22,803 nucleotides of DNA. It comes from a virus. Positions 5,813 to 22,350 of this stretch are shown here, one piece after another (the first letter of the stretch is position 1; each line of letters starts with the position of its first letter). Under the pieces are notes generated by a model. The model made no database searches and was not told the DNA's origin. It saw nothing but the letters and a program-made list of their open reading frames with translations. The translations under genes and the position numbers were made by a program. Location: positions 1 through 22,803 of the IMG/VR virus record IMGVR_UViG_3300035670_001304. One strand, written 5' to 3'.

Positions 5813-5814
5813 AG

Positions 5815-5854
5815 GGGAAGCCCCCCTACGACAAACGACGCAGAGGGGCTTCCC
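5815..5854. terminator. 10-bp perfect inverted repeat upstream of terL
   Basis: The arms GGGAAGCCCC (5815-5824) and GGGGCTTCCC (5845-5854) are perfectly complementary around a 20-nt loop, two bases upstream of the preferred terL start on the - strand. On + it is followed at once by ACACCAACCAACC, like the early-gene leader cassettes but with no gene after it. It could be an attenuator or processing hairpin in the terL leader. No U-run follows on either strand. Confidence 0.6.
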
Positions 5855-5862
5855 ACACCAAC

Positions 5863-5888
5863 CAACCGCAACTTGTGTAGAGCGGTTG
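5863..5888. promoter_or_regulatory. second hairpin in the terL leader
   Basis: Arms CAACCGC (5863-5869) and GCGGTTG (5882-5888), a perfect 7-bp stem with a 12-nt loop, lie between the 74-aa gene and terL. Together with the hairpin at 5815-5854 they make most of the 113-bp intergenic stretch strongly structured. Confidence 0.45.
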
Positions 5889-5925
5889 CATTGCCAGGGA
5901 ACCACCCCTTAGCAACGGTCATAGC

Positions 5926-6150
5926 CTAACCCTCAACAAAGGCTTCATTCACTTCTGGAGTGGTGGGGTCATCACCTTCAAATTGCCCTTTGACGGTGCG
6001 TGCCCGTTTCTTCGTTGGGGCCGAGTCCGTTGCGGCAACAGGAACAGCTCCAGCAAGCGCTGCTTCAGCTGCCGCCACCACAGCATCCGGGACGTCACTG
6101 CCGAAATGCTGCAGACCGAGCCGGATCCGCTGGTCATTGGTGAGATACAT
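5926..6150 (-). CDS. small hypothetical phage protein, 74 aa
   Basis: Begins MYLTNDQRIRLGLQHFG, continues with an Ala/Val-rich helical stretch (VVAAAEAALAGAVPVAA), a basic patch TKKRARTVKG, and an acidic end with DDPTTPEVNEAF. The combination of a basic segment followed by a 'G.F..DDP.TP..NEA' tail is a pattern I have seen in small proteins of podovirus packaging and structural regions, but I cannot name a family. It lies between the winged-helix gene upstream and terL downstream, all on -, so the three probably share a transcript. Its AUG at 6150 follows 43 bp after the stop of the upstream gene. Confidence 0.6.
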   Translation of the reverse strand: MYLTNDQRIRLGLQHFGSDVPDAVVAAAEAALAGAVPVAATDSAPTKKRARTVKGQFEGDDPTTPEVNEAFVEG

Positions 6151-6193
6151 GGGTGCAGAGCAGTTTGTCTCAGGCTATCGAGAACTGAAAGGG

Positions 6194-6571
6194 TCAGTCT
6201 TCAACTGCTGCTTTGAACTGTGCCCAGAGGTGATTGCGGCGTTGCGGGCCACCGACGCTGAAGATAAACGGATTGACGAGGAAGTAACGCTCGCCAGAGG
6301 CTTTGTCAAAGACTCTGGCAATAACTTGCTGCTGTCTTAAGCGGGTCATGGAGGAGATGCAGGTGGAGTGGTTGATGTCGAGCTTTTCAGCCAAGGCTGC
6401 ACCGGTGACGCGCACGCGACCAGAGCGGTCCATGTGTGCGACCAGAGCTACGAGGACGCTGAGGTCCCGGAGCTGCAGATCCCTTTTGGCAACGGCGTCG
6501 AGAAGGGTTTCAAGGTCTCTGGTCTGGTGAAACATGACGAAGCGGTCCTGCTCCTCAGGGGGTAACGACAT
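6194..6571 (-). CDS. winged-helix DNA-binding protein (RepL/MarR-like)
   Basis: 125 aa. Residues about 35-100 form a clear winged helix: LSVLVALVAHMDRSGRVRV, then the helix-turn-helix TGAALAEKLDINHSTCISSM, then TRLRQQQVIARVFDKASGERYFLVNPFIF as the wing. The ending '..YFLVNPFIFSVGG...' resembles RepL-type plasmid initiators and related phage regulators, so both replication initiation and transcriptional control are possible. The start is ATG 6571, preceded on its own strand by the leader ACCAACCAACC and, further up, by the tandem CCTAGG array at 6595-6623, which could serve for autoregulation. It points away from the + strand early genes, the usual place for a lysogeny regulator. The DNA-binding fold is secure, the exact function is not. 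Confidence 0.7.
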   Translation of the reverse strand: MSLPPEEQDRFVMFHQTRDLETLLDAVAKRDLQLRDLSVLVALVAHMDRSGRVRVTGAALAEKLDINHSTCISSMTRLRQQQVIARVFDKASGERYFLVNPFIFSVGGPQRRNHLWAQFKAAVED

Positions 6572-6594
6572 GGTTGGTTGGTGTGTACGGGTTT

Positions 6595-6623
6595 CCTAGG
6601 AATCTCCTAGGAGTCCCCTATGG
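6595..6623. promoter_or_regulatory. tandem CCTAGG operator array 1 (11-bp period)
   Basis: CCTAGG occurs at 6595-6600 and 6606-6611, with the near copy CCTATGG at 6617-6623; starts are exactly 11 bp apart. Flanks extend the palindrome towards CTCCTAGGAGT. The array lies 23-51 bp before the winged-helix gene on - and upstream of the early region on +. Two more arrays with the same period exist at 10758 and 14926. Confidence 0.7.
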
Positions 6624-7335: not shown

Positions 7336-7376
7336 AGCTCAGCAGGAGTGCGCACCAACCAACCGCACCTAGACAC

Positions 7377-7688
7377 ATGAACACCACCACCGCGCCCGCG
7401 GCCGCTGAGGCTGTGGGCGGGATCCTGGACGCTGCGCAGCTGGCCTGGGATCGGTCCGACTGGATCGATGCCATGCAGCAGGGCTGCGAGGACACGTACG
7501 CGAGCTCAGTCATTTGGGCGAGCGATTGGGACCTGGAGCTCACCAGCGCGGACCTGCGCCAGCTGATCGAGGACCACGGGTTCACGATCACCCAGCTGGC
7601 CTACGACATCGCCAGCGCTGCAGCAGCGGGTCACCCGGTCGCTTCCGTCTGGCACGCCGGCCAGGCCCTCGTCTGGCTGGGGTACTGA
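7377..7688 (+). CDS. early protein of unknown function, 103 aa
   Basis: The start is ATG 7377, placed after the CA-rich leader ACCAACCAACC at 7354-7364; an upstream in-frame ATG at 7305 is rejected because it would run through the leader and the palindrome at 7320. The protein is acidic with a Thr/Ala-rich N-terminus, then a globular region with several Trp (WDRSDWIDAM, WASDWDLELTSADLRQLIEDHG, VWHAGQALVWLGY). No known domain is recognised. It is the first gene of the early cluster, a position that in T7-like phages often holds host-takeover or anti-restriction proteins; that role is inference. It overlaps the next ATG by one base. Confidence 0.65.
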   Translation: MNTTTAPAAAEAVGGILDAAQLAWDRSDWIDAMQQGCEDTYASSVIWASDWDLELTSADLRQLIEDHGFTITQLAYDIASAAAAGHPVASVWHAGQALVWLGY

Positions 7689-8004: not shown

Positions 8005-8075
8005 TCCCATCTCGGAGGGGCTTTGGCCCTTCCCTGCTGGGTTCACCAGCACCAACACCAACCAACCAACCAACC
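8003..8075 (+). repeat. intercistronic double-hairpin cassette, copy 1
   Basis: Runs from the stop codon of the preceding gene to the next ATG. Stem 1 is GAGGGGC (8015-8021) with GCCCTTC (8026-8032). Stem 2 is TGCTGG-GTTCA-CCAGCA (8035-8051). A leader of repeated CCAACCAACC follows up to the start codon. Copies 2 and 3 at 8920 and 9449 share the same order of parts, and both stems carry compensating base changes. Confidence 0.75.
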
Positions 8076-8468
8076 ATGACAACCAAAGACACACTGCCGC
8101 GGCCGCTGATGGGCCATTACGTGGGCCTGGCCATCGAGGCCCTGGAGCGCCACAACCTGACGCCTGCCGCCCTGCTGCGGGGGCTGCAGAACGGCACGCT
8201 GCAAATCGTCTGGAGCGGGCCGGCACTGCCGCCGCCCAGCTACTGCCGCTCTGGCGGTCAGATCGACACCGACACGATCGCCGGTGACTGGGCCTCGCGC
8301 CTTGTCAACGCTCTGGCCCGCGATGCCGGCACCTACGGCGCGGTGGGCTTTGACCTCACCGCCAGCGATTGCTGGTGGCTGATCGCCAAAGTCCGCGCCG
8401 GTGCCCTGCAGGTCGTAACGGCCGACACCCTGGCCGCTCTGGGCCGGGCCGCCCTTGTGGAGGCCTGA
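8076..8468 (+). CDS. early protein of unknown function, 130 aa
   Basis: ATG 8076 follows directly on the CA-rich leader of cassette copy 1. Longer in-frame versions would translate the hairpins and are rejected. The protein begins MTTKDTLPRPLMGHYVGLAI and has a helical stretch (EALERHNLTPAALLRGLQNG), a Pro-rich turn (ALPPPSYC), then a mixed region with ASDCWWLIAKVRAGALQVV. No known domain is recognised. Three bases separate its stop from the next ATG, so it heads a three-gene unit (8076, 8472, 8703) that ends at cassette copy 2. Confidence 0.65.
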   Translation: MTTKDTLPRPLMGHYVGLAIEALERHNLTPAALLRGLQNGTLQIVWSGPALPPPSYCRSGGQIDTDTIAGDWASRLVNALARDAGTYGAVGFDLTASDCWWLIAKVRAGALQVVTADTLAALGRAALVEA

Positions 8469-8921: not shown

Positions 8922-8991
8922 CGGCATCACGGAGGCCCTGCGGGGCCTCTCTGCTGCCCTCAGCAGCACCAACACCAACCAGCCACCAACC
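8920..8991 (+). repeat. intercistronic double-hairpin cassette, copy 2
   Basis: Stem 1 is GAGGCCC-TGCG-GGGCCTC (8932-8949), a perfect 7-bp stem with a tetraloop. Stem 2 is CTGCTG-CCCT-CAGCAG (8951-8966); compared with copies 1 and 3 both arms have changed together, keeping the pairing. The leader with ACCAACC-type repeats leads to ATG 8992. Confidence 0.75.
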
Positions 8992-9450
8992 ATGTCTAAC
9001 GCCATCTACAACCACACAGCAGGCCGCCTGCACACCTGCCTCAACACCGACGGGGTGTGCATGTTCACCGGTAAGACCGTTGAGCAGATGCAGCAAGAGT
9101 CAGCCGAACAGCTCGAGGTGATGCCCTTTACCCAGGCCCTCGAGCTGACCGGCGCCGCAGACCGCGCCCGCTACTGCACCGGGCCCGAGCGGATCACCCA
9201 GGAGCGCTACGAGGAAATGCTCAACGTGCTCCCGCCCGAGAACTGGCAGCGCGGGGTCGGTTACAGCTGCTTCCGGCTGTCCGAGCGACTCGCCGGCGCC
9301 ATTGCCAGCTTTTTTGTTCGCATCGGCGACAGCTTCTACCAGATCAACGAAGACGAGGACACAGACCCCGCTGTTCTGTTCCGCGCCTGCATGGACCACG
9401 ATGCCCCGCCAGAGCCGGCCGCGGCCATCTGCCGCCGTGCTGGCTGCTGA
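8992..9450 (+). CDS. early protein of unknown function, 152 aa
   Basis: ATG 8992 directly follows the leader of cassette copy 2. The N-terminus has spaced cysteines (HTCLNTDGVCMFTG). The middle has ITQERYEEMLNVLPPENWQR, and then FRLSERLAGAIASFFVRIGD, SFYQINEDEDTDPAVLF. The 'ERYEEML..LPP..W' and 'SERL.G.I...F.RIGD..Y..NE' segments look like a conserved fold found in small plasmid and phage proteins of unknown function; I cannot name it with certainty. Its stop TGA (9448-9450) opens cassette copy 3, so it is a single-gene cassette between two hairpin elements. Confidence 0.65.
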   Translation: MSNAIYNHTAGRLHTCLNTDGVCMFTGKTVEQMQQESAEQLEVMPFTQALELTGAADRARYCTGPERITQERYEEMLNVLPPENWQRGVGYSCFRLSERLAGAIASFFVRIGDSFYQINEDEDTDPAVLFRACMDHDAPPEPAAAICRRAGC

Positions 9451-9519
9451 TCCCATCACTGAGGCCCTGCGGGGCCTCTCTGCTGGGTTCACCAGCACCA
9501 CACCAACCAACCCAAACCC
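9449..9519 (+). repeat. intercistronic double-hairpin cassette, copy 3
   Basis: Stem 1 is GAGGCCC-TGCG-GGGCCTC (9461-9478), identical to copy 2. Stem 2 is TGCTGG-GTTCA-CCAGCA (9481-9497), identical to copy 1. The leader contains ACACCAACCAACCC and ends at ATG 9520. This copy therefore combines features of the other two. Confidence 0.75.
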
Positions 9520-9795
9520 ATGAACACACCCAAGCAACCGCCAGACCCGGCCCTTGTGGCCCTGGTGCTGGCCCTGCTGGCCCTCGAGCTGCTCTGGCAG
9601 CTGGTGCGGCCGGTGCTGACTCGCAGCGCCGCCCTGGTGCTGGCCCTGCTGCAGGTGCGCCCGGTGCGCACTGGTGCAGCCGACCTGACCGAAGAGCTGG
9701 CCGCCGATTGCACACCCGCGCCGCGGCCGGTAGCCAAAAGCAAGCGACGCCGCACACGGCGCACCCGTCACACCGCAACGGAGGCCTCATGCTGA
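9520..9795 (+). CDS. small early protein with membrane helix and basic tail, 91 aa
   Basis: After MNTPKQPPDP comes a strongly hydrophobic helix (ALVALVLALLALELLWQLV), a second Leu/Val-rich stretch (SAALVLALLQV), then a polar region and a strongly basic tail (KSKRRRTRRTRH). The topology suggests a membrane-anchored protein with a cytoplasmic basic end. The start follows the leader of cassette copy 3. It overlaps the next gene by seven bases. No family recognised; low-complexity composition makes function hard to judge. Confidence 0.5.
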   Translation: MNTPKQPPDPALVALVLALLALELLWQLVRPVLTRSAALVLALLQVRPVRTGAADLTEELAADCTPAPRPVAKSKRRRTRRTRHTATEASC

Positions 9796-10644: not shown

Positions 10645-10925
10645 CGCTGCTGGCTTCGATTGAGCTGCCATTTCCTAAAGCGTGGCGCCACTATTCCCTG
10701 TGGGCAGAGCAGGTGGGAAACCGCCATCGCCTTGTTCTGCAGGGGTGTCAGAGTTCTCCTAGGAGTTTCCTAGGAGTGCAACCATGGATCTGGATCAACT
10801 GGCGAGGGCTCTTAATGCTTTTGCCGCAATGGACCCGACCAGCTTTCCGCTGCATCACGCCCAACTCTTCATCGAGGTGGCGCGCAAGGAGCAATGCACC
10901 TTTGCAGAGCTGCAAGAGGCCATGA
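10635..10925 (+). CDS. uncertain gene with good RBS, possibly decayed 3' end
   Basis: A clear Shine-Dalgarno GGAGG (10623-10627) lies seven bases before ATG 10635, better than most starts here. The first 39 or so residues (MRLALLASIELPFPKAWRHY, then SLWAEQVGNRHRLVLQGC) look like a plausible protein. After that the frame passes through the CCTAGG array and then runs out of frame across the next gene for more than 140 bp, where the amino acids look like a shadow reading. The original gene may have been cut short by a frameshift or by the arrival of the downstream control region. Treat as a possible remnant. Confidence 0.3.
   Translation: MRLALLASIELPFPKAWRHYSLWAEQVGNRHRLVLQGCQSSPRSFLGVQPWIWINWRGLLMLLPQWTRPAFRCITPNSSSRWRARSNAPLQSCKRP
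10756..10777. promoter_or_regulatory. tandem CCTAGG operator array 2 (11-bp period)
   Basis: CCTAGG at 10758-10763 and 10769-10774, 11 bp apart, each followed by AGT. The array ends seven bases before the ATG of the winged-helix gene at 10784, so a bound protein would block its translation start region or promoter. A degenerate TCTGCA palindrome (10736-10751) lies directly upstream. Confidence 0.7.
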
Positions 10926-11101
10926 ACCTCACCAACGGATCCGTGTCCCGGACCGTTGCTGCGCTGAGCGTGGTCAACCGCCACGGTGAGCCTGGATTTC
11001 GACTCGTCGAGGTCTTCAAAGACCCCGAGCAGCCCAGGCGATTCCTGGTGCGGCTCTCGCCCCGCGGCAAAGCCCTGCTCAAGCAGCTCAAAGACTCCTG
11101 A
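10784..11101 (+). CDS. MarR-like winged-helix transcription regulator
   Basis: 105 aa with a standard winged-helix layout: FPLHHAQLFIEVARKEQ as the first helix, CTFAELQEAMNLTNGSVSRT as the helix-turn-helix with the recognition helix NGSVSRTVAAL, then the wing GFRLVEVFKDPEQPRRFLVR and the 'LSPRGKALLKQL' C-terminal helix. MarR-type proteins act as dimers on palindromes. Its start lies seven bases after a tandem CCTAGG array, which makes autorepression plausible. It is the last gene before the integrase leader, as expected for a regulator of the lysis-lysogeny choice. The fold is well supported, the regulon is inferred. Confidence 0.7.
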   Translation: MDLDQLARALNAFAAMDPTSFPLHHAQLFIEVARKEQCTFAELQEAMNLTNGSVSRTVAALSVVNRHGEPGFRLVEVFKDPEQPRRFLVRLSPRGKALLKQLKDS

Positions 11102-11156
11102 GCAGGCCGCTGTCTGCGGCTTGCCAAAACAAGCCAACACCAACCAACCAACCACC
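11102..11156 (+). promoter_or_regulatory. integrase leader: hairpin plus CA-rich stretch
   Basis: The small hairpin GCCGC-TGTCT-GCGGC (11107-11121) is followed by the stretch ACACCAACCAACCAACC before ATG 11157. It resembles the stop-to-start cassettes at 8003, 8920 and 9449 in layout, though the stems differ. No Shine-Dalgarno is visible. Confidence 0.5.
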
Positions 11157-12155
11157 ATGACTGGATCTGTTCGCAAGGCTGCCGATGGCAGCTGGATTGC
11201 TGATGTCTCTGTGGCCGGAGTGCGCAAGACCGGCAAATGCAAAACCCGCGCCGAGGCCCTGGCCCGCAAGCGTGAGTTCCTGGAGCTCCTGCTGCAGCGT
11301 GAGGCCAAGCAGGTGCAGCGCTCCACCTACACCCTGGCCGAAGCCCGCGAGCTGTCGCTGCGCGTGCGCTGGAGCGGTCTCGCCTACCAGCGCACCGCTG
11401 CGATCTACAGCCAGGAGGCCGTGACCTATTTCGGCCCTGGCTTTCCCTGCAGCGAGTTCACCGCCACCCTGGTGGATGAATGGCGCCAGGCCCTGACGGC
11501 CAAGGGCAACAGGCCCAGCACCGTCAACAAGAAGGTGGCCGCCATCCGGGCCATGCTCAGCGACGCCCACCTGCACGGGCACCTGGAAGACGTGCCGCGG
11601 ATGCCACGGCAGCTGCGGATGCAGAACACCAAGGACCGGGTGTTTAGTCCCGAGGAGGTCGCTGGCTTTTGCAGGGTGTTTCAGGAGCTGGGCGAGCCCG
11701 CCGCGGCCGATCTGTTGGTGTTTCTGCTCGAGACTGCCTGCCGCTGGGGCGAGGCGGAGCGCTTGCAGGGCAAGGACGTGGACCTGGAGAAGGCCCGCGT
11801 GACCTTCTGGGCTACCAAGAACGGCAAGCCCAGGTCCGTGCCCCTCACCCGACGGGCTGTCGATGCCCTGAAGGACCACCTTCCGGCCGTTCGGACCCAC
11901 CGCGTCTGGCCCTACAAGTACGACCGCTTTGAGCACCTGTTTGATCGTGCCAAAGGCTGCCTCGGATTGGCTGGTGATCGCGCTCTCACCATTCACACCA
12001 CGCGTCACACCTGCGCCAGCAAGTTGGCCAGCCGGGGTATTCCCTTGCACCAGCTGATGGCGTTTGGCGGCTGGACTTCGCTGGCCTCAGTTCAGCGGTA
12101 TTTGCATCTGCACACCGACGCCCTGGCGGCCTGCGTTGACGCCCTGGAGGGCTGA
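11157..12155 (+). CDS. int: tyrosine-type site-specific integrase
   Basis: 332 aa; catalyses recombination between attP and a bacterial attachment site. ATG 11157 follows the CA-rich leader; an in-frame start at 10986 is rejected because it overlaps the regulator gene. The N-terminus (GSVRKAADGSWIADVSVAGV and onwards) is an arm-binding-type domain, then a SAM-like core-binding domain (about 60-150). The catalytic domain has R196 (ETACRWGE), the KNGKPRSVPL beta-hairpin, H280-x-x-R283 (HTTRH), W306 (FGGW) and nucleophile Y315 (RYLHL). Its gene ends about 140 bp before the intact tRNA-Thr and about 220 bp before the tRNA-Tyr half that I take as attP, the classical int-attP arrangement. Confidence 0.95.
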   Translation: MTGSVRKAADGSWIADVSVAGVRKTGKCKTRAEALARKREFLELLLQREAKQVQRSTYTLAEARELSLRVRWSGLAYQRTAAIYSQEAVTYFGPGFPCSEFTATLVDEWRQALTAKGNRPSTVNKKVAAIRAMLSDAHLHGHLEDVPRMPRQLRMQNTKDRVFSPEEVAGFCRVFQELGEPAAADLLVFLLETACRWGEAERLQGKDVDLEKARVTFWATKNGKPRSVPLTRRAVDALKDHLPAVRTHRVWPYKYDRFEHLFDRAKGCLGLAGDRALTIHTTRHTCASKLASRGIPLHQLMAFGGWTSLASVQRYLHLHTDALAACVDALEG

Positions 12156-12249: not shown

Positions 12250-12293
12250 CCCCTTAAAAATATAAACATATAAACATTGAACCCTTTTTTTGA

Positions 12294-12365
<72 letters not shown>

Positions 12366-12375
12366 ATGTGGAAGG

Positions 12376-12427
12376 TGGGCCGGGTTGGATTTGAACCAAC
12401 GTAGGCAGAGCCAGCGGATTTACAGTC
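12376..12427 (-). other. attP core: 3' half of tRNA-Tyr (GTA)
   Basis: On - this reads from GACTGTAAATCCGC through the variable arm, a perfect T-arm (GTTGG-TTCAAAT-CCAAC) and the 3' acceptor strand CCGGCCC plus discriminator A. The anticodon GTA and the 3' anticodon strand are present. The 5' anticodon strand should be GCGGA but reads GGTGA, and nothing upstream matches the D-arm or 5' acceptor. A tRNA 3' half starting at the anticodon loop, next to an integrase gene, is the classical phage attachment core. After integration the host 5' half would rejoin this 3' half. Confidence 0.8.
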
Positions 12428-12545: not shown

Positions 12546-14930
12546 TTGACACGGACTTTCCTGTCCACCGGCACCTTGGCCGACCCCGCTGCAGCCGACC
12601 CGGCCGCCATCGAGGAGCAAGATTGCGCCTCTTCTCAATCAAAGGCCAGGCTGCAATCGCTGGGCCGTGAATCAGTCAGCAGCTACGGGCGCGCTTTATT
12701 CATTGAGCACGGCGATCGGGTGGCCAAGGCGCTTGACGCCCTGCTGACCCGGTTTGTGCTGGACCCGCTGATCGCCGGGCCCCACTACTGCGCCCTGCCG
12801 CTGCTGCTGCACTTCTCAACCAAAGGAGCCGTGCCCATTGCGGCTGTGTCTTTGAAGGCGGTCTTGGATCAGCTGTCTCGCAGGCACACTCACCGCCGGC
12901 TTGCTGGTGCCATCGGCCGGGCCATTGAAGATGAAGTCAAGGCTGGGCGGATTGCCGCTCGAGACAGAGACGTGCTGCGGCTGCTCAAACGCCACCAGGG
13001 CAAGGCAGCAGTGGTCAGCAGCGAGACGCTGCAATCGCTGCGCGTGGGCCACACCAGCTGGACGACAACCGATCGCTTTGAAGTCGGCGCCCTGCTGCTG
13101 CAGCTGGTCATTGAGGAAACCAAGCTGCTGCGGCTGGTTCGGCAGTCAGTCCGCGGGCGCCAGACCTTGATGGTGGAGCCAACTGAGCTTGCAACCGAAA
13201 CGATTCGCAGGGCCCCGGAAGATCAGGCGCCACTGCCGCAGGGTCCAAAGCTCGAACCTCCCAGGGACTGGCTCGGGCCCCAGGGCCTGGTGAGCAGGCG
13301 CGACGGGCTACCCCTCGACTACCTGCATGGCGCAGACCTCAAGGTGCCGCTGCAAGTGGTTAATCACCTGCAGGCGCAAGCCCTGATGGTCGATCCGTGG
13401 ATGGCCCAGCAGCAGTCAGAGGCATGGAGCGCCAACTTGCGAGGCCTTTTCTCTGTCACCAGGGACCCGCAGCAGGCGCCCGCAAGACCAGAAGCCGATG
13501 AGGACCGCGCAGCATGGCGGCAGTGGCGGCGGGAAGCCCGAGAGGCCTGGGCGGAGGAGCGCAAGAACAAAGGCCCGCGGCAGCGCATCCAGGAATCACT
13601 GAACCAAGCCGTGGCGGTTGCGGGCGAACCGATCTGGTTTGGGTACGTGTTCGATTTTCGCGGCAGGGCTTACACGTCCAACCGACGTGTCACCCATCAA
13701 GGCCCTGATTTTGAGAAAGGGCTGGTCAACTTCCGCAGTGGGCTGCCCTGTGACGAGACCGCTGCCGAGTGGATCCTGAAGGCCGCGGCGTCGCATTGGG
13801 GGCTGAGCCGCTCGAGCTGGGCAGAACGTCTGCAGTGGGGCCGCGACAACATCGAACGGCTGCTGGCTATTGCCGAGGCGCCGCTGGACCGGCTCGAGCT
13901 GTGGCGTGATGCCAAGGAGCCATGGCAGTTGCTGCAAATGGCCAGGGCCTGGTCGCAATGGTTGAACGACCCATCGACGCCAATCACGGCGCCGATCCGC
14001 TTTGACCAAACGACGAGCGGCTTGGGGATCGCTGCGGCGCTGGTGCGGGACAAGGCGCTGGCACGCGAGACAAACCTGGTCGGCACCACCCGCCACGACA
14101 TCTACGTCGGGGTTGCCGCAAAGGCCGTCAGGGCGCTGCAGCTGGACCTGGAATCCGGCACCCCGGCTCAGCAGCGCTATGCCGCTGTGTGGCTTGAGCT
14201 GGGCGTTGATCGGGCCCTGGTCAAAGGGCCGGTGATGTCCTCTGTGTATGGCGCCCAGCTGCGCTCCATCTTTGACGGGCTGGCAGATCACCTGATCGAG
14301 CATGTGGAGCTGCAGCAAGCGGCGGACTACCAGCGGCAGATCGTGCTGCCTGCCCGCTACATGGCGCAGAAGCTGCAGCAGGTGCTCGCGCCCGAGATTG
14401 CCCCACTGCTCGAGCTCAAGCGCTGGCTGGAGGGCATCAGTGCTGTTGTTGTCAAACGCCAGCGGGGCATCCGTTGGACATCGCCGATGGGCCTGCCGGT
14501 GTTGCTGGCCGGCAAGCAGCCAGCCAACCCGCCTGCCCCGACGCTGCTGCATGGCAGCCGCGGCTGGCGAACAGAGGACAGCAGCAGGCGCCGCCATGAA
14601 CTCAGCGCCAGGGCGACAAGCCGCGGCATCACGGCCAACCTCATTCACTCGTTTGACGCTGCGCTGCTGCACGCCCTGATCTGCAGGGCTGAAGATGTCG
14701 GGGCCGAAGTGCTCCCTAACCACGACTGCTTTGCGGCTGTGCCAGCCCTGGCGACCTGGCTGCACAGAACAGTTCACTCAGAGCTGCGCACGCTGTACCT
14801 GCCGGAGTGGCTTGACGAGATCTCGGCTGAGATCGCCTGCAACGCAGGGTTGAAGCAGCTGCCGTCGCCGCCCATGGTGGGCACGCTGGTGCCTGGCGAG
14901 ATCGGTCAGAACTCCTATTGCTTTTCCTAG
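12546..14930 (+). CDS. T7-type single-subunit RNA polymerase
   Basis: 794 aa, DNA-directed RNA polymerase that transcribes the middle and late phage genes. From the TTG start at 12546, the motifs are DFRGR at 370-374 (T7 DWRGR), catalytic D487 in FDQTTSGLG (T7 D537), K560 and Y568 in VKGPVMSSVYG with the same 8-residue spacing as T7 K631/Y639, and H726-D727 in NHDCFAAVPA (T7 H811/D812). The end SYCFS corresponds to the aromatic C-terminal foot. It is shorter than T7 (883 aa), mainly in the N-terminal domain. The start is uncertain: the first Met after TTG is far inside. Its stop codon lies within the first CCTAGG of array 3. Confidence 0.95.
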   Translation: MTRTFLSTGTLADPAAADPAAIEEQDCASSQSKARLQSLGRESVSSYGRALFIEHGDRVAKALDALLTRFVLDPLIAGPHYCALPLLLHFSTKGAVPIAAVSLKAVLDQLSRRHTHRRLAGAIGRAIEDEVKAGRIAARDRDVLRLLKRHQGKAAVVSSETLQSLRVGHTSWTTTDRFEVGALLLQLVIEETKLLRLVRQSVRGRQTLMVEPTELATETIRRAPEDQAPLPQGPKLEPPRDWLGPQGLVSRRDGLPLDYLHGADLKVPLQVVNHLQAQALMVDPWMAQQQSEAWSANLRGLFSVTRDPQQAPARPEADEDRAAWRQWRREAREAWAEERKNKGPRQRIQESLNQAVAVAGEPIWFGYVFDFRGRAYTSNRRVTHQGPDFEKGLVNFRSGLPCDETAAEWILKAAASHWGLSRSSWAERLQWGRDNIERLLAIAEAPLDRLELWRDAKEPWQLLQMARAWSQWLNDPSTPITAPIRFDQTTSGLGIAAALVRDKALARETNLVGTTRHDIYVGVAAKAVRALQLDLESGTPAQQRYAAVWLELGVDRALVKGPVMSSVYGAQLRSIFDGLADHLIEHVELQQAADYQRQIVLPARYMAQKLQQVLAPEIAPLLELKRWLEGISAVVVKRQRGIRWTSPMGLPVLLAGKQPANPPAPTLLHGSRGWRTEDSSRRRHELSARATSRGITANLIHSFDAALLHALICRAEDVGAEVLPNHDCFAAVPALATWLHRTVHSELRTLYLPEWLDEISAEIACNAGLKQLPSPPMVGTLVPGEIGQNSYCFS

Positions 14931-14953
14931 GACTCTCCTAGGAGTTGCCTAGG
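14926..14953. promoter_or_regulatory. tandem CCTAGG operator array 3 (11-bp period)
   Basis: Three perfect CCTAGG copies at 14926, 14937 and 14948, exactly 11 bp apart. The first contains the TAG stop of the RNA polymerase gene. The array precedes the SSB gene by about 50 bp and lies upstream of the TCTGCA palindrome at 14984, the same order of motifs being reversed at the 10784 gene. Confidence 0.75.
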
Positions 14954-14983
14954 AGAGGTCAAGCCGCTACGGTGCGGCAGACA

Positions 14984-15003: not shown

Positions 15004-15657
15004 ATGCCGCGCACAATGCTGACCACCCCCGTAGGCGATGCCTACTGGGCCAAATGCCTAGAGCCCGAAGAAGATCGCTTTGATCCAGAGAAGCCACGCA
15101 GCTGGTCTGTCAGCTGGTGCGGCGATCAAAACGACAAGCCAACCATCTCCTTGATGCAGCTGATCGAGGAGGAGTTTGCTCGCATCCATGGCGAGGGAGC
15201 CAAGCCAAGCAAAAACGCTTGGCCTTTCCGCGAGCAAACCGACAAGGACGGCAAGGCCACCGGCCTGCTCGAGTTCCGCTTCAAGAAAAACGAGACCACC
15301 AAAAAGGGCATGACCCTGATGGCTCCGGCCGTCTACGACAGCCACAAGAACCCTTGGCCGGCCAACACGCTGATTGGCAACGGCAGCAAGGTGAAGGTCG
15401 CGTTCTCCGTCTGGGGTTGGGAGGACAAGTTCGGCAAGAAGGGCGTGAGCCTGAGCTTTGAGGCCCTTCAGGTGCTTGACCTCGTGCCTTACGAGCGCAA
15501 GGACCCAGGCGATGCCTTTGGCGTTGAAAACGGCTACGTGGCAGAGACCCCGGCCGATGCCTTCACCAACGGCAAAGGCGATGAGGCCCTGACGCCCAGC
15601 CAGCGACTTGCTCAGCGCGCGGCCGCACCGGCCGACGACGAGGAGATCCCGTTCTGA
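15004..15657 (+). CDS. T7 gp2.5-like single-stranded DNA-binding protein
   Basis: 217 aa, binds single-stranded DNA during replication and recombination. The body begins PRTMLTTPVGDAYWAKCLEP and contains the central strand region with NGSKVKVAFSVWGWEDKFGK and GVSLSFEALQVLDLVPYERK, which matches the OB-fold core of phage gp2.5 proteins. The tail is acidic and ends DDEEIPF, like the acidic, aromatic-tipped C-terminus of T7 gp2.5 that contacts replication partners. It is the first gene of a tightly coupled replication operon: its TGA overlaps the next ATG. Both palindrome families lie in its leader. Confidence 0.85.
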   Translation: MPRTMLTTPVGDAYWAKCLEPEEDRFDPEKPRSWSVSWCGDQNDKPTISLMQLIEEEFARIHGEGAKPSKNAWPFREQTDKDGKATGLLEFRFKKNETTKKGMTLMAPAVYDSHKNPWPANTLIGNGSKVKVAFSVWGWEDKFGKKGVSLSFEALQVLDLVPYERKDPGDAFGVENGYVAETPADAFTNGKGDEALTPSQRLAQRAAAPADDEEIPF

Positions 15658-16016
15658 TGAAGACCGCCGACTTCGAGCTCAAAGTCCCGCTCATGTCCAA
15701 GGCTCGCCCCCGTTCCCCCAAAGGTGGTGGGCGGCCGTACATGCCCAAGGCCTACATGGACTGGAAGGCCAACGTCAGGGCAATTCTTGGCGAGTGGTGG
15801 ACTGTCCCACCTCTTGAGCAGGTCAACGCCTTGGTGCTGGTGTTCCGGGGCCCGGCCCGCGGCGACTTGGACAACCTTGCCGGGGCAGTGCTCGACAGCG
15901 GCAACGGCTTGATCTGGGCCGACGACCGGGTGGGTGTGATGCCCACCCTCGCCTTGCGCTGGACGAAGGCAGCCAAGGCAGAGCAATCCATCTACATGAA
16001 GGTGATCTGGGAATGA
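15657..16016 (+). CDS. RusA-like Holliday junction resolvase
   Basis: 119 aa endonuclease that resolves branched DNA before packaging. The signature GDLDNLAGAVLDSGNG is followed by IWADDRVG; acidic residues D70, D72 and D89/D90 sit where the E. coli RusA catalytic residues D70, D72 and D91 are. The N-terminal KARPRSPKGGGRPY is typical of the family's basic opening. In T7 this position after the SSB is held by the unrelated endonuclease I (gp3), so RusA replaces it here. The start overlaps the SSB stop by one base, and its end overlaps the next gene by four bases. Confidence 0.88.
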   Translation: MKTADFELKVPLMSKARPRSPKGGGRPYMPKAYMDWKANVRAILGEWWTVPPLEQVNALVLVFRGPARGDLDNLAGAVLDSGNGLIWADDRVGVMPTLALRWTKAAKAEQSIYMKVIWE

Positions 16017-16585
16017 ACTGCCCCAGCTGCAAACATCAACACTCTCGCGTCATTGACACCGACCGGGTGTCAGACGGCATCAGGCGTTACCGGGTCTGCC
16101 GCAACTGCGGCAATCGGTTCGCGACTCTCGAGCGGATCGAGGACTGGGATCCAGTCATGGGCGGCTATGGGCCCGTGGCAGAAGAGCCCGTGCCGGTCTT
16201 GGCGGCTGTCCCTGACCCGCTGCCAGCCAGGCCTCGGGTCGCAGCACGGCACGTTGTCGATCTGGCCGACGACCACTTATTGGCTGTCTGCCAAGAGGCA
16301 CAGCCGTTGTTAGTGCAGTGGTGGAACGAAAGCCGCCGCTCAAAGCACAAAGGCAACGCCACCTGGACTGAAGCCGCGTGGCAGGCATCGGTCAGCCGTG
16401 TTGCTGCACTGCCCCAGGCGCAGCAAATGCTGCTGGCTCAGGCGGGAGTGGAGCACGGCTGGCAGGCCCTTAAGCCCGAATACATCAAAGACGAGCTGGC
16501 CAGGCCAACAGCCGCTGGCCGCCCCATGCCCAAGGACCCGGCGATGCTCGCCGCTCTGGAGCAATGGCCAAGTCAAACCGCCTGA
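16013..16585 (+). CDS. NrdR-type zinc-ribbon protein with unknown C-terminal part
   Basis: 190 aa. The first 45 residues are a close match to the NrdR zinc ribbon: C3-P-S-C6, the DTDRVSDGIRRYRVC stretch, C29-R-N-C32-G, then RFATLERIE. Cellular NrdR continues with an ATP-cone and represses ribonucleotide reductase genes. That domain is absent here; instead a Pro/Val-rich linker leads to about 120 residues of helical sequence with WWNESRRSKHKGNATWTEAA and EHGWQALKPEYIKDEL. It sits between the resolvase and another unknown replication-region gene, overlapping the latter by 22 bp. It may bind DNA or tune host nucleotide metabolism, but this is inference. Confidence 0.7.
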   Translation: MNCPSCKHQHSRVIDTDRVSDGIRRYRVCRNCGNRFATLERIEDWDPVMGGYGPVAEEPVPVLAAVPDPLPARPRVAARHVVDLADDHLLAVCQEAQPLLVQWWNESRRSKHKGNATWTEAAWQASVSRVAALPQAQQMLLAQAGVEHGWQALKPEYIKDELARPTAAGRPMPKDPAMLAALEQWPSQTA

Positions 16586-17100
16586 CGCCGGAGACGTTCC
16601 TGGCCGTCGCCGAAATGATCGCGGCTCAGCTGCGCATCAAAGAGGCCGACCGCTGGAGTCCGCACATTTGCCGGCTCAAGTTCCACAGCTTCACGACTGA
16701 GTTTCCAGAGATCAGCGAGCCGCAGTTCATGTGGGCTGCTGAGCAGTGGATCCAGAGCCTGGAGCCCAACGCGTTCAAGCGCTACCCGACCTGGAAAGAA
16801 CTAATGGCACCGCTTTACAGAACCGAGAACGGGCTGGCCAACAGGAGCTGGGGCTTCCGCCCTGAGCTGCCTGGCTTTTGCCAGCCCAGCGCAGAGCAGC
16901 TGGCCATGCTGCCAACCGCTCCGCAGTCAGCTGTAGCGCCGCCTGACCCGCACAACGCTGCGGCCTACCTGCCATTTCAAGCAGGAGATCACCCTTTGCT
17001 GCCTCCACCCCTTGAAGAAACGCCCGCTCTGACACCAGAAAAATGGGCGGATTACATCAGCTGGGTGGCGCAGGAGGAAGCGCAGCTTGCGGATGCGTGA
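16564..17100 (+). CDS. replication-region protein of unknown function, 178 aa
   Basis: The N-terminal helical domain starts SNRLTPETFLAVAEMIAAQL and contains WSPHICRLKFHSFTTEFPEI, FMWAAEQWIQSL and the motif FKRYPTWKELMAPLYRTENG. The second half is Pro-rich and ends with TPEKWADYISWVAQEEAQLA. The pattern 'F..P....L...LY..E.G..NRSWGF' looks like a conserved phage protein, and its place between zinc ribbon and small genes suggests replication, for example as a loader or adaptor for the host replisome, but no ATPase or primase motif is present. It overlaps the preceding gene by 22 bp and the next by one base. Confidence 0.65.
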   Translation: MAKSNRLTPETFLAVAEMIAAQLRIKEADRWSPHICRLKFHSFTTEFPEISEPQFMWAAEQWIQSLEPNAFKRYPTWKELMAPLYRTENGLANRSWGFRPELPGFCQPSAEQLAMLPTAPQSAVAPPDPHNAAAYLPFQAGDHPLLPPPLEETPALTPEKWADYISWVAQEEAQLADA

Positions 17101-17303
17101 TGCAGCCACTTATCAACAAAACCGAGCTGCGCAGCATCCTGCAGCGCGGCCTGCTCAGCGGAAAGTGGTCGGTGTTGCAGTTCAACCGCGGCGGCAAAGA
17201 CCCAATCCTGCCAAGCAAGGAGTTTCTCGAGGAATACCCCCAGTTTCTCGACATGGAGTTCAGGGACAGCAAAGCGTTCAAAGAGCGAGGGCACACGCAA
17301 TGA
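17100..17303 (+). CDS. small hypothetical protein, 67 aa
   Basis: ATG 17100 overlaps the preceding stop by one base (TGATG). The peptide MQPLINKTELRSILQRGLLS is followed by GKWSVLQFNRGGKDPILPSK and an acidic, aromatic end (EFLEEYPQFLDMEFRD). It is charged and probably globular. It overlaps the next gene by four bases. It belongs to a run of five short coupled genes between 17100 and 18070 that occupies the place of the primase-helicase and polymerase genes of T7. I do not recognise its family. Confidence 0.6.
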   Translation: MQPLINKTELRSILQRGLLSGKWSVLQFNRGGKDPILPSKEFLEEYPQFLDMEFRDSKAFKERGHTQ

Positions 17304-17530
17304 GCTGGGAGCAGTACCGCAAGGGCCAGGCCGTTTCCTTCCGCGTCAATGGCGGCTGGAAAAAGGGATTGGCCAGCGAGATCTACGCCGACAGCATCTC
17401 TGTCACTTACTCAGTCGGATCCGCTGATCGAACTGCACGCATTTACGACTTACGAAACATCAAGCCATGGGAATCTACAAACAACAAACAGGCATCGACG
17501 TTGAACGAGCAGCTGTCGTTCGACTCTTAA
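17300..17530 (+). CDS. small hypothetical protein, 76 aa
   Basis: ATG 17300 overlaps the previous stop (ATGA). The sequence MSWEQYRKGQAVSFRVNGGW, KKGLASEIYADSISVTYSVG, SADRTARIYDLRNIKPW reads as a small all-beta barrel: short alternating strands with Gly turns, similar in style to SH3/Tudor-like modules. The tail is polar (NNKQASTLNEQL). A longer in-frame version from 17087 is rejected, because it would overlap the previous gene for 200 bp with an Arg/Gln-rich shadow sequence. Function unknown. Confidence 0.6.
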   Translation: MSWEQYRKGQAVSFRVNGGWKKGLASEIYADSISVTYSVGSADRTARIYDLRNIKPWESTNNKQASTLNEQLSFDS

Positions 17531-17646
17531 GCATGGCCAAGCAGCGATGCGCCGAGGCCGAAGAAGAAGGCGCGAACTACGTCTCAACCTGGTGGGGCGG
17601 CTATGTGCGAGCCCTCGAGGAAATCCTTGGCATGGAGATGGAGTGA
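17467..17646 (+). CDS. small hypothetical protein, 59 aa
   Basis: A short frame from ATG 17467, or from ATG 17533 directly after the preceding stop, to TGA 17644-17646. The longer form begins MGIYKQQTGIDVERAAVVRL and both contain the acidic helix AKQRCAEAEEEGANYVSTWW and GYVRALEEILGMEME. The longer start overlaps the upstream gene by 64 bp, the shorter one not at all, so 17533 may be the true start (37 aa). The stop overlaps the next ATG by one base, which supports the frame. Function unknown. Confidence 0.45.
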   Translation: MGIYKQQTGIDVERAAVVRLLSMAKQRCAEAEEEGANYVSTWWGGYVRALEEILGMEME

Positions 17647-17873
17647 TGGGCTGGTCAATGACCACAAGGCTGCCTTGCGAAGGGCCAGAGCCAAGGCTTG
17701 GCGCCGGCATCAGTAGGCCGCTGGCGAAGGAAAGCACCCGCGAGTATCGACTCCTGGTCAAGCAGCCTGGCAAGCCAGTCATGAGGCTGACTATCCCTGC
17801 GCCAAGCAAAGCCAAGGCGATCAGCTACTGCAAAAACCGCTGGCCCGATTGCACCGTGGAGGCACTGCCATGA
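17646..17873 (+). CDS. small hypothetical protein, 75 aa
   Basis: ATG 17646 overlaps the previous stop (TGATG). The peptide MGWSMTTRLPCEGPEPRLGA leads to a strand-rich part STREYRLLVKQPGKPVMRLT, IPAPSKAKAISYCKNRWPDC, and TVEALP at the end. It looks like a compact alpha/beta module with a basic helix. Its stop overlaps the following ATG (ATGA). A longer version starting at 17547 is a shadow of the neighbouring gene. No family recognised. Confidence 0.55.
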   Translation: MGWSMTTRLPCEGPEPRLGAGISRPLAKESTREYRLLVKQPGKPVMRLTIPAPSKAKAISYCKNRWPDCTVEALP

Positions 17874-18070
17874 GCTTGCTCGATCAACTAACTGAGCTGT
17901 ATTGGTCGCTTGGCGAATACAGCATTGACGATCGCCGTCGTATGAAGACGGTGGTTTATGAGATGGCAAGCCTCATCCGCACTTGGGCGCCAGACCCAGG
18001 GCGGGCTCGCATCTGCCATCTGGCCATTAACGAGGTGGCCGATCGGCTGATTAGGGAGGTTGAGCAGTGA
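17870..18070 (+). CDS. small helical hypothetical protein, 66 aa
   Basis: Starts at ATG 17870 within the preceding stop (ATGA). The protein MSLLDQLTELYWSLGEYSID, DRRRMKTVVYEMASLIRTWA, RICHLAINEVADRLIREVEQ appears to be all helical with amphipathic repeats. Its last bases overlap the GTG start of the exonuclease gene, so the two are likely translationally coupled. Function unknown. Confidence 0.6.
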   Translation: MSLLDQLTELYWSLGEYSIDDRRRMKTVVYEMASLIRTWAPDPGRARICHLAINEVADRLIREVEQ

Positions 18071-18807
18071 AAGCCCTGATTGACACCGAGGTGTACCTCT
18101 ACCGGGCCGCGACGGCCTGTGAGTTTGAGGCCGAGTGGGACACCGATGACTGGACCTACCTCTGCCGCCACGGCGATGCTCAGGCCGCTTTCCAGGACAC
18201 CATCAGCGAGATCCGCGACACCCTCCCGGACCACAACCCGGTGCTGGTGTTCAGCGATCGAGTCAGCTTCCGCTATGGCGTCTGGCCGCACTACAAGGCC
18301 AACCGCAAGAAGTACCGCAAGCCGGCTGGTTACCGGGCCCTGATCGAGTGGGTCTACAAGGTTGGCCCGGCTCGCGGCTGGGAGGTAGTGCGTTTGCCGG
18401 ACATCGAGGGAGACGACGTGCTCGGCGTTCTCTACGAAGAGGGCGACGTCATCGTCTCGATCGACAAAGACATGCTCACCCTGCCGGGCCTGCACCTGCG
18501 GGATGGCGAGTTGATGGAAGTGAGCCGACTTGAGGCCGACCGCAACTTCTACACCCAGGTGCTGGTGGGCGATGCCAGCGACAACTACCCCGGCTGCCCT
18601 GGGGTCGGCGCAGTAGGGGCAGCCAAGCTGCTTGCCGACTGTGCTGCAGAGGTGGAGATGTGGCGGGTGGTACTTGAGGCCTATTCCAAGAAGGCCCTCG
18701 GCGAGCCACATGCCATCACCCAGGCCAGATGCGCACGGATCCTCAGGGCTGGCGAGTACGACTTGACTGCCAAGGCTCCCCTGCTATGGAGTCCGCCGGT
18801 AATCTGA
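18067..18807 (+). CDS. 5'-3' exonuclease (FEN-like, T7 gp6 type)
   Basis: 246 aa nuclease of the FEN/5'-3' exonuclease superfamily, which removes RNA primers and degrades host DNA in T7-like phages. GTG start at 18067 overlaps the upstream stop. Motifs: D6 in ALIDTEVY; HYKANRKKYR at 76-84; EGDDVLG at 114-120; SIDKDM at 131-136; VGDASDNYPGCPGVG at 167-181, where the acidic metal ligands D169/D172 are followed by the helix-three-turn-helix DNA grip continuing to about 190. T7 gp6 is 300 aa, so this form is shorter at the C-terminus. It closes the coupled replication operon. Confidence 0.88.
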   Translation: MKALIDTEVYLYRAATACEFEAEWDTDDWTYLCRHGDAQAAFQDTISEIRDTLPDHNPVLVFSDRVSFRYGVWPHYKANRKKYRKPAGYRALIEWVYKVGPARGWEVVRLPDIEGDDVLGVLYEEGDVIVSIDKDMLTLPGLHLRDGELMEVSRLEADRNFYTQVLVGDASDNYPGCPGVGAVGAAKLLADCAAEVEMWRVVLEAYSKKALGEPHAITQARCARILRAGEYDLTAKAPLLWSPPVI

Positions 18808-20706: not shown

Positions 20707-22350
20707 ATGTCTTGCGCCAAACGCTACAGAGCTCTCGAGTCGGATCGGAATTACTACCTCGAGCGAGCGCGCAGTTCAGCGCGACTCACCCTGCCGTATC
20801 TCATCCCACTGAGCGACGAACCTTACGCGCACGAGAGCCAGACCTTTCCGCTTCCGTGGAATGGCATCGGGGCCAGGGGCGTTCACAACCTTGCAAGCCG
20901 TCTGCTGCTGGCATTGCTGCCGCCGACTGAGACGTTCTTCCGCTTCACGATCGACGAGATCGAGATGCTTAAAAGCGAGCGCCAGATGGCCGCCGCAGGG
21001 GCCAGCCCCGACGCCATTGGCAAGCAGCGCAGCGAGTTTGATCTGGACCTGGCGCGGCTAGAGCGGGCGGTGCTGCGCAGCATCGAAACCAGCAACGACC
21101 GTGTGGCCGTTCACGAGATGCTGCTGCACCTGGTCATCGCCGGGAACGCCTTGATGTGGGTCTCGGACAAGGGGCTCAAGTGCTTTCACCTGAACCGCTA
21201 CGTCTGCCGGCGGGACATGATGGGCAACCCTCTCGAGGCCATCGTCTGCGAGCAGCTGTCTGTTGAGTCGCTGGATGACGATGCTCGCCAGCTGCTTGAT
21301 GACGAGGACGGCGAGGTCGAAGGCATCCTTGATGACGACTCGGCGCCCGAGTACGAGCGCGTTGTACGCATCTACACCCACATCGAGTGGGAAGGGAAAA
21401 AGGTCAAGTGGTATCAAGAGCTGAAGGACAAGGAGATCCCTGGCACTCGCGGCACCGCCAGCTTGAGCGAATCGCCCTGGCTGCCTTTGCGCATGTACCG
21501 GATCGACGGTCAGGGCTACAGCCCTGGCTATGTCGAAGCGGCTTGCATTGCTGACCTTCAGACGGCTGAGGCCCTGAGCCAAGCGATTGCTGAAGGATCG
21601 CTGGTGTCTGCTCAGGTCAAGCACCTGGTCAAGCCTAGCGGCATCGCCAATCCCAAGAAGTTGGCCGAGGCCCCCAACGGCGCCTATCTGCCCGGCAACC
21701 CCGATGACGTGTTCACCATCCAGGTGAACAAGGCAGCCGATCTAAATGTCGCTGCCCAGGGCCTGGCGCGGATTGAAGCCCGCCTAGCGCAGGCGTTCAT
21801 GCTGGCTGACGTGCGCGACTCAGAGCGCACCACTGCCGAGGAAGTGCGGCTGCAAGCGCTGCAGATCGAGAACTCTCTTGGCTCCATCTACGCGATCTTG
21901 ACGACCGAGTTCCAGCAGCCGTATGTGGCCCGCAAGCTGGAGATCCTGACCCGCAAAGGCAAGCTACCCAAGCTGCCTGAGTCGCTGGTCAAGCCGGTGG
22001 TGAGCGTTGGCCTGGCGGCCGTGGGCCGCGGCAACGACCTCGAAAAGACAGCGCGTTTTATGCAGATTCTGCAAGGCGCGCTGGGACCGGAGGGGATCGC
22101 CACCTACGTGATGCCAGCTGAGCTGATCCGCCGCCTGGCTGGCGCCATGGGCATGGACATCATCGGCCTGGTCAAGACCGATGAGCAGCTGGCCGCTGAG
22201 CAGCAGCAACAGCAGCAAATGGCGATTGCCCAGCAGGCGCTTCAAGCCGGCATGGGCGACCCGCAGAAGCTGGCCAACGCTGCTGCCACAACGCAAGAAA
22301 TGGCGGCCCCGCCGCCTTCACCCGAAACCCCTGAACAGGCCCCCGCATGA
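20707..22350 (+). CDS. portal protein (head-tail connector, T7 gp8-like)
   Basis: 547 aa, near the 536 aa of T7 gp8. It forms the dodecameric ring at the head vertex through which DNA is packaged and ejected. The N-terminal half reads like podovirus portals: YRALESDRNYYLERARSSAR, LTLPYLIPLSDEP, LPWNGIGARGVHNLASRLLL, ALLPPTETFFRF. An acidic loop (LLDDEDGEVEGILDDDSAPE) follows. Further on are QGYSPGYVEAACIADLQTAE, the AQAFMLADVRDSERTTAEEV segment typical of the family, and a Gln-rich, Pro-rich C-terminus (EQQQQQQMAIAQQALQ). Only one base separates it from the upstream gene, and it overlaps the scaffold gene by four bases. Confidence 0.95.
   Translation: MSCAKRYRALESDRNYYLERARSSARLTLPYLIPLSDEPYAHESQTFPLPWNGIGARGVHNLASRLLLALLPPTETFFRFTIDEIEMLKSERQMAAAGASPDAIGKQRSEFDLDLARLERAVLRSIETSNDRVAVHEMLLHLVIAGNALMWVSDKGLKCFHLNRYVCRRDMMGNPLEAIVCEQLSVESLDDDARQLLDDEDGEVEGILDDDSAPEYERVVRIYTHIEWEGKKVKWYQELKDKEIPGTRGTASLSESPWLPLRMYRIDGQGYSPGYVEAACIADLQTAEALSQAIAEGSLVSAQVKHLVKPSGIANPKKLAEAPNGAYLPGNPDDVFTIQVNKAADLNVAAQGLARIEARLAQAFMLADVRDSERTTAEEVRLQALQIENSLGSIYAILTTEFQQPYVARKLEILTRKGKLPKLPESLVKPVVSVGLAAVGRGNDLEKTARFMQILQGALGPEGIATYVMPAELIRRLAGAMGMDIIGLVKTDEQLAAEQQQQQQMAIAQQALQAGMGDPQKLANAAATTQEMAAPPPSPETPEQAPA

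Follow-up and report, generated by a model that had tools for sequence, protein, structure and literature searches.

Gene Content of the Replication Module

The window analysed here, virus record IMGVR_UViG_3300035670_001304 of IMG/VR, comprises 22,803 bases of a partial genome, and its end lies downstream of the portal gene (20707-22350). Its genes follow the order reverse transcriptase, lysin, terminase, small-gene field, integrase, T7-like RNA polymerase (RNAP), replication module, and portal. This study concerns the replication module (15004-18807; Table 1), in particular the two overlapping genes that lie between the RusA-like resolvase and the 5'-3' exonuclease, at the position of the T7 primase-helicase gene gp4. 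They encode an NrdR-like protein and p178, a protein of 178 amino acids (aa), and are referred to below as the cassette. The replisome of T7-like phages is the textbook example of one that is largely self-sufficient. The window's phage group, viruses of freshwater cyanobacteria, has a T7-style RNA polymerase and appears to have lost both replication enzymes, the DNA polymerase and the helicase-primase.

Among the features typical of the T7-like Autographiviridae, the window encodes the RNA polymerase, the terminase (PF22530, E 3e-36), and the portal protein (PF12236, E 3e-64), all of the T7 type. The family-A DNA polymerase gp5 and the primase-helicase gp4 were found in none of the 41 cassette-bearing records described below. 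An initial annotation of the DNA had given the positions and contents of the module genes correctly, and its remark that the module contains neither a primase-helicase nor a DNA polymerase was confirmed. The Walker A pattern was present in none of the tested genes, the small genes 17300-17530 and 17870-18070 being judged from their sequence.

Absence of DNA Polymerase and Helicase-Primase in Related Genomes

The window, itself partial, gave no match to DNA_pol_A. Because the record stops after the portal gene, the window alone does not prove the absence of these enzymes, and relatives were therefore searched for a polymerase or helicase gene outside the module as well as within it. For this, 47 whole records were searched: 39 IMG/VR records with p178, the phages S-SRP02 and MedDCM-OCT-S38-C3 (S38-C3), and six outgroups. 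As many of the 39 are fragments, three closed relatives (G010, G025, and G029, with exact direct terminal repeats of 127, 127, and 123 bp) and the complete isolate S-SRP02 count most.

DNA polymerase A (PF00476) was found in none of the 41 cassette-bearing records (39 from IMG/VR, S-SRP02, and S38-C3). Its three matches in the 47 records were all in outgroups, namely Syn5, a Limnohabitans phage, and S45-C18. The DnaB-type helicase (PF03796, DnaB_C) was likewise absent from all 41 and matched only the six outgroups, that is, the same three phages together with P-SCSP1h, S37-C6, and S31-C1. The alpha subunit of Pol III (PF07733) gave no match in any of the 47 records. In a search of 23 records, Toprim_2 was missing from all 17 cassette-bearing ones and present in the six outgroups, and Pol B was found in none of the 17 and none of the 23, a search that gave no positive among phages. 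The outgroups were positive as expected for PF00476, PF03796, and Toprim_2.

The open reading frames (ORFs) of at least 200 aa in G010, G025, G029, and S-SRP02 were assigned by comparison with the genes of S-SRP02 and by visual inspection, and no polymerase or helicase candidate was seen among them. They encode RNAP, single-stranded DNA-binding protein (SSB), exonuclease, structural proteins, terminase, integrase, protease, and a clamp-like protein; the rest are a reverse transcriptase, tail proteins, proteins of unassigned function with no polymerase- or helicase-like features, and antisense frames. With nothing found elsewhere in the relatives, the absence noted in the initial annotation stands, and the window's phage almost certainly encodes neither enzyme.

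Exchange of gp4 for the Cassette

Relatives of p178 in IMG/VR numbered 64 in a first scan and 117 with an alignment query, the best 80 of the 117 being used. Queries with p178, the NrdR-like protein, RNAP, and gp4 (locus scans using the best 80 of 117, 80 of 103, and 80 of 82 loci) gathered a non-random sample of 379 phage loci, which fell into 116 clusters defined by a shared exact 150-mer. The C-terminal domain of the NrdR-like protein and p178 occurred together in 52 of these clusters and never apart (52/52 have both); SSB or RusA plus the exonuclease were in view in 46 of the 52. Meanwhile, gp4 was present in 59 clusters, 14 of them also with a polymerase, one cluster had a polymerase only, and four had none of these genes. 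No cluster contained both gp4 and the cassette (0/116). The ends of the two cassette genes overlap by 22 bp in 32 of 54 pairs.

The phages S31-C1 and S37-C6 show the gene order RNAP, SSB, RusA, a bare zinc ribbon (61 and 87 aa), gp4, and exonuclease. In a quick, unrooted RNAP tree of 75 clusters, the cassette clade lies on one side of a branch with a Shimodaira-Hasegawa-like approximate likelihood ratio test (SH-aLRT) value of 99 and is sister to 22 gp4-bearing rows (SH-aLRT 98). Three rows labelled H are cut loci (L083, L142, and L143); L142 and L143 end inside gp4, and the genome of L083 (W07) has polymerase matches. The simplest history suggested by these sequences is one swap of gp4 for the cassette, preceded by a single loss of the polymerase, a loss checked in the sister clade on the whole genomes of S37-C6 and S31-C1 only.

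Proteins of the Cassette

In the NrdR-like protein, residues 1-43 form a zinc ribbon of the NrdR type, and residues from about 95 to 160 form a new C-terminal domain. The ribbon superimposes on NrdR structures with Z 6.9 over 43 residues (root mean square deviation 1.5), and in PDB sequence searches the similarity to NrdR does not extend beyond profile positions 1-74. Of the two parts of the NrdR repressor, the protein thus has the N-terminal zinc ribbon and lacks the ATP cone: no ATP-cone family was present among the Pfam matches of the window protein or in the list of 25 families obtained for 49 members. Searching for an NrdR box gave 0 matches. In the C-terminal domain, W103, W104, R108, K111, W118, G145, E147, G149, and W150 are invariant in 49 rows. 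A tblastn search against phages gave hits above noise in S-SRP02 and S38-C3 only, and the domain was found only in the window's clade.

In 2 of 49 members, this domain has a weak match (E 0.0016 and 0.01) to phrog_678, "replication initiation O-like", and the C-termini of O-like proteins from bacterial genomes have a similar W..W...R...K ... GWQGL pattern. For this comparison, 20 phrog_678 loci whose match reached the C-terminal part were chosen and 11 C-termini were used; they were picked by a GWxGL-like motif, and the set is therefore biased towards likeness. Nine phrog_678 loci searched with a profile of the domain gave no convincing match. An O-like domain at this C-terminus is thus a weak lead from sequence patterns.

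The p178 family comprises 59 distinct sequences, and its 56-row alignment has 38 invariant columns. The initial annotation had proposed structure prediction of p178, and the AlphaFold2 model obtained is a confident helical one (mean predicted local distance difference test score 84, with high confidence over about residues 10-120), to which no known fold was matched. Derivation from a G39P/DnaI-like loader, an idea based on the shape of the sequence, was unsupported in Pfam, PHROGs, PDB sequences, Foldseek, and VIA-align; with respect to the G39P, DnaC, DciA, and lambda P loaders, these general profile and fold searches gave no match, p178 being compared to none of them directly. A conserved QLAxLP motif (Q112 to P117) reminiscent of clamp-binding motifs was set aside, its middle positions being too variable. 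The constant company of the NrdR-like protein and the position at gp4 speak for p178 as the recruiter of host replication proteins that the initial annotation had seen in it, and we propose it as a partner in recruiting the host helicase, a target that no sequence or fold match indicates. The NrdR-like protein is an equally good candidate.

The C-Terminal Tail of the Phage SSB

In E. coli, the SSB tail DDDIPF binds DnaG, the chi subunit of Pol III, PriA, and other proteins, as described in the available part of the source (PMC5872125). The phage SSBs were examined for a strict bacterial-type tail, defined as an acidic residue, up to two residues, I/V/L/M, P, and F at the C-terminal end. It was found in 39 of 48 cassette clusters, 7 of 33 clusters with gp4 only, and 1 of 11 DNA-polymerase clusters, counts that are inflated by kinship among the phages. 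By locus, 60 of 67 members of the cassette clade had a bacterial-type tail (L082 was omitted, and Vibrio N4 5647-6330, probably not an SSB, was uncounted). The two SSBs of a Cyanobium metagenome-assembled genome (MAG) end in PSEEEVPF and DDDIPF. The SSBs of two phages (L068 and L076) end in GGDPSEEEVPF, and their counterpart in the Cyanobium MAG ends in GGGEPSEEEVPF.

A Model of Host-Dependent Replication and Its Alternatives

Reliance on the host replisome, as suggested in the initial annotation, is the best reading of the whole-genome absence of both enzymes in relatives, the exchange of gp4 for the cassette, and the bacterial-type SSB tail, and we consider it very probable that the window's phage uses the host replisome. 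With more reserve, we favour the fuller explanation that the T7 replisome was lost and that the cassette recruits the host helicase, primase, and polymerase; that the cassette is the recruiter is likewise probable rather than assured.

According to this explanation, the family-A polymerase was probably already gone, and gp4 still present, in the ancestor common to the window's clade, S31-C1, and S37-C6. Then gp4 would have been replaced once by p178 and a zinc-ribbon protein that had gained its C-terminal domain. The zinc-ribbon protein may bind phage DNA or the SSB-DNA complex as an organiser and, together with p178, would bring the host DnaB, with the host DnaG and Pol III following. The tail of the phage SSB would give host replication proteins a docking site on single-stranded phage DNA, and RusA and the 5'-3' exonuclease would process the replication products. 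Since neither cassette protein unwinds or primes by a known motif, the two are most likely an organiser and an adapter; recruitment itself is something that we infer, because p178 matches no known fold. A new type of host-replisome adapter, consisting of a zinc-ribbon organiser, p178 as a loader without an ATPase fold, and a host-like SSB tail, is a tentative proposal to which we give slightly less than an even chance.

Several results weigh against this explanation. No match that counts was obtained for p178 in Pfam (56 members), PHROGs, or PDB sequences, and fold searches against PDB gave at best E 4.8 (Foldseek) and Z 2.8 (VIA-align), so the role of p178 rests on context. The swap being a single event, the perfect mutual exclusion of gp4 and the cassette counts as one observation. 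The bacterial-type tail also occurs in the 7 gp4 clusters and in S45-C18, a polymerase phage and thus a clear exception, and its strict form is missing in 9 of the 48 cassette clusters. As for the O-like lead, the hhalign score of the NrdR-like domain (16.2) was equalled or beaten in 5 of 300 column shuffles, and p178 scored higher (17.9) against the same profile. A clamp-like protein, P0001 (10903-11607 in S-SRP02, L077, where it is annotated as Pol III beta subunit; also in G018, G020, and G025), would, if real, fit the use of host Pol III. It is very diverged (Pfam E 0.0065, below the cut-off, and no PDB sequence match), rare, and was not seen in the window; with only 4 of 47 records encoding it, it stands outside the core mechanism. 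Finally, the cassette may serve something besides replication.

The last point leads to the alternative that survives best, though we consider it unlikely: the phage would use the host machinery alone, for example in transcript- or recombination-primed replication via PriA and SSB, and the cassette would act in host takeover or counter-defence. No match ties p178 to replication, the RNAP, RusA, and exonuclease would suit recombination-dependent replication, and a bacterial-type SSB tail could itself bring PriA and DnaG, judging from the accessible part of the SSB source (PMC5872125). The position of the cassette at gp4, between RusA and the exonuclease, and the inseparability of its genes in all 52 clusters argue for a role as adapter instead.

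Primases have a zinc-binding domain, of which the NrdR-like zinc ribbon is reminiscent. The phage could have a replicase of its own, diverged beyond recognition, in which p178, the NrdR-like protein, or a small gene product is a new primase or helicase, with host Pol I or Pol III used for synthesis only; in its favour, p178 and the NrdR-like C-terminal domain are new families standing in for gp4 one for one. This is quite improbable, as the proteins have only 178 and 190 aa and no Walker A, p178 is predicted to be small and helical, and Toprim is absent from the 17 cassette-bearing records searched. That the phage is a defective or satellite element in need of a helper is very improbable indeed: the window, being a fragment, contains no replicase or capsid genes, whereas closed relatives encode capsid, tail, terminase, and lysis genes, and S-SRP02, an isolated phage with this same module, has a burst size estimated at 50 according to the part of its description available (PMC8790148).

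Regulatory Repeats and Genome Context

Table 1. Positions of the replication module genes, the RNA polymerase gene, and the putative regulatory elements in the window.
Feature	Position	Strand	Evidence
T7-like single-subunit RNA polymerase	12546-14930	+	PF00940 E 7e-43; phrog_414 E 7e-118
gp2.5-like SSB, C-terminus DDEEIPF	15004-15657	+	phrog_112 E 4.8e-19
RusA-like Holliday junction resolvase, at the T7 gp3 endonuclease position	15657-16016	+	PF05866 E 5.1e-9
NrdR-like protein, 190 aa	16013-16585	+	PF22811 E 3.5e-13
p178, helical 178-aa protein	16564-17100	+	ORF without Pfam/PHROG family
Five small genes, function unassigned	17100-17303, 17300-17530, 17467-17646, 17646-17873, 17870-18070	+	
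5'-3' exonuclease, 246 aa	18067-18807	+	PF02739 E 2.9e-13; phrog_107 E 4e-51
Three CCTAGG palindromes, 11-bp spacing, just upstream of SSB gene	14925-14954		CCTAGG here in 13/16 genomes
Two CCTAGG palindromes, 11-bp spacing, upstream of MarR-like gene (10784-11101)	10757-10775		14/16 genomes
Two CCTAGG palindromes, 11-bp spacing, upstream of 125-aa winged-helix gene	6594-6612		11/16 genomes
125-aa winged-helix protein ("RepL-like" in the initial annotation)	6194-6571	-	DnaD_N 0.0024, MarR_2 0.031, RepL 0.07, all below cut-off

The CCTAGG palindromes before the winged-helix, MarR-like, and SSB genes share the repeat unit TCCTAGGA at 11-bp spacing. CCTAGG was counted within -250 to +100 of the gene start in 16 genomes (W06 was omitted). 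In this range it occurred at none of the RNAP, terminase, portal, RusA, NrdR-like, and p178 genes (0/16 each), at the integrase gene in 4/16, and at the major capsid protein gene in 5/15, the frequency in random stretches being 4.7%. As the repeats precede three separate genes, an operator fits better than iterons. The pattern of sites points to an operator-like regulon joining lysogeny and replication genes, in which a common switch probably controls the replication operon and the genes on the integrase side. No clear origin was indicated by GC skew or AT-rich stretches.

The 125-aa winged-helix protein had been the second candidate for recruiting the replisome in the initial annotation. With its RepL match below the cut-off, neither this role nor that of an initiator found support. 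Because the CCTAGG repeat is common to its own, the MarR, and the SSB genes, the protein looks like a regulator, and it is more likely part of the CCTAGG switch than an initiator.

A CACCAACACCAACCAACC-type leader occurs at 7352-7389, 8052-8080, 8969-8997, 9497-9525, and 11134-11162 and, inverted, at 6572-6588. It immediately precedes the ATG start codon in several small genes and in the integrase and winged-helix genes; three copies are part of a 76-nt repeat that includes a GC-rich, hairpin-like segment.

Beside the integrase gene lies a tRNA-Thr(GGT) gene (12294-12365), which together with its flank (12270-12411) is 96-97% identical over 119-135 bp to the ends of three contigs of the Cyanobium MAG. 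One of these contigs encodes a close relative of the window integrase, and the other two carry ordinary host genes, as read by eye from their translations; another contig of the same MAG encodes p178 at 87% identity. Sequence matches of this kind make it likely that 12270-12411 is an attachment site and that the phage is temperate with a Cyanobium host. The clade of the window, S-SRP02, and S38-C3 is probably temperate. Instead of integration at tRNA-Thr, a binning mixture in the MAG may account for the matches.

Elsewhere in the window, a two-domain lysin of a phage lysozyme and an M15 peptidase is encoded at 2687-3769 on the minus strand. The reverse transcriptase at 109-1083 belongs to phrog_1423 (E 1.7e-84); in the closed relative G029 it is located close to the gene of a 512-aa tail-type protein, which suggests a putative diversity-generating element.

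Comparison with Known Systems

In SPP1 (G38P/G39P) and lambda (O/P), adjacent organiser and loader genes encode small proteins that recruit a DnaB-type helicase to the phage DNA. The searches with p178 gave no sequence or fold match to a loader of any kind; only the C-terminus of the NrdR-like protein has a weak O-like match. The two cassette proteins are small candidates for recruiters of cyanobacterial DnaB.

S-SRP02 (MW822601; PMC8790148) has the same gene order as the window, from RNAP through SSB, RusA, NrdR-like protein, p178, and small genes to exonuclease and portal, with p178 66% identical and RNAP only 46% identical. Its published description, in the part available, lists ORF34 as DNA polymerase I and another gene as the Pol III beta subunit, gives a DNA polymerase as one of three genes used for its tree, and makes no mention there of an absent polymerase or helicase (PMC8790148). 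We found that ORF34 (22389-23129 of L077), a protein of 246 aa, matches 5'-3' exonuclease families only and that the genome is without DNA_pol_A; ORF34 is probably the gene behind the published tree placement. This marker annotation is hereby corrected, and surveys of cyanopodoviruses based on DNA polymerase will miss the cassette clade. A short gene of the 5'-3' exonuclease type in AP013546 (20750-21481) is likewise annotated as DNA polymerase I. The same cassette, again without DNA_pol_A and DnaB_C, is present in S38-C3 (Stopalavirus, AP013548), which differs in being marine and in having an RNAP 38% identical to that of the window. In the available part of their work, Mizuno et al. assign groups G7-G9, with characteristic replication genes, to the Autographivirinae and do not remark on polymerase or helicase losses (PMC3861242).

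Loss of the DNA polymerase alone is already known from the MPP-C cyanopodoviruses (P-SCSP1 group), T7-like cyanophages for which the authors, in the part of the paper available, propose the use of host Pol I or Pol III and list the primase-helicase as a core gene (PMC9860041). The relatives of the window, itself partial, share the absence of a polymerase with MPP-C. Unlike MPP-C, which keep gp4, the cassette clade is without it (DnaB_C 0/41), and its RNAPs do not group with those of the P-SCSP1 phages. As the MPP-C phages P-SCSP1h and P-SCSP2 stand apart from the cassette clade on long branches of the RNAP tree, their polymerase loss is likely independent. A literature search, in which subscription journals lay mostly outside the scope, revealed no phage clade without both polymerase and gp4, and the loss of both enzymes is apparently the unpublished part.

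The closest comparison is with Nohivirus S31-C1 (AP013547) and Oinezvirus S37-C6 (AP013546), which have a related RNAP and a zinc ribbon at the same place and are without DNA_pol_A. They differ from the window in keeping the gp4 helicase-primase and in lacking the p178 cassette (by search in S31-C1, by annotated genes in S37-C6). A clade that keeps its RNAP, together with this living intermediate sister clade, makes the evolution of replisome dependence traceable. If our explanation is true, the two clades illustrate an undescribed type of helicase recruitment and a stepwise route from an autonomous to a host-dependent replisome, in which the polymerase was given up first and the helicase-primase thereafter.

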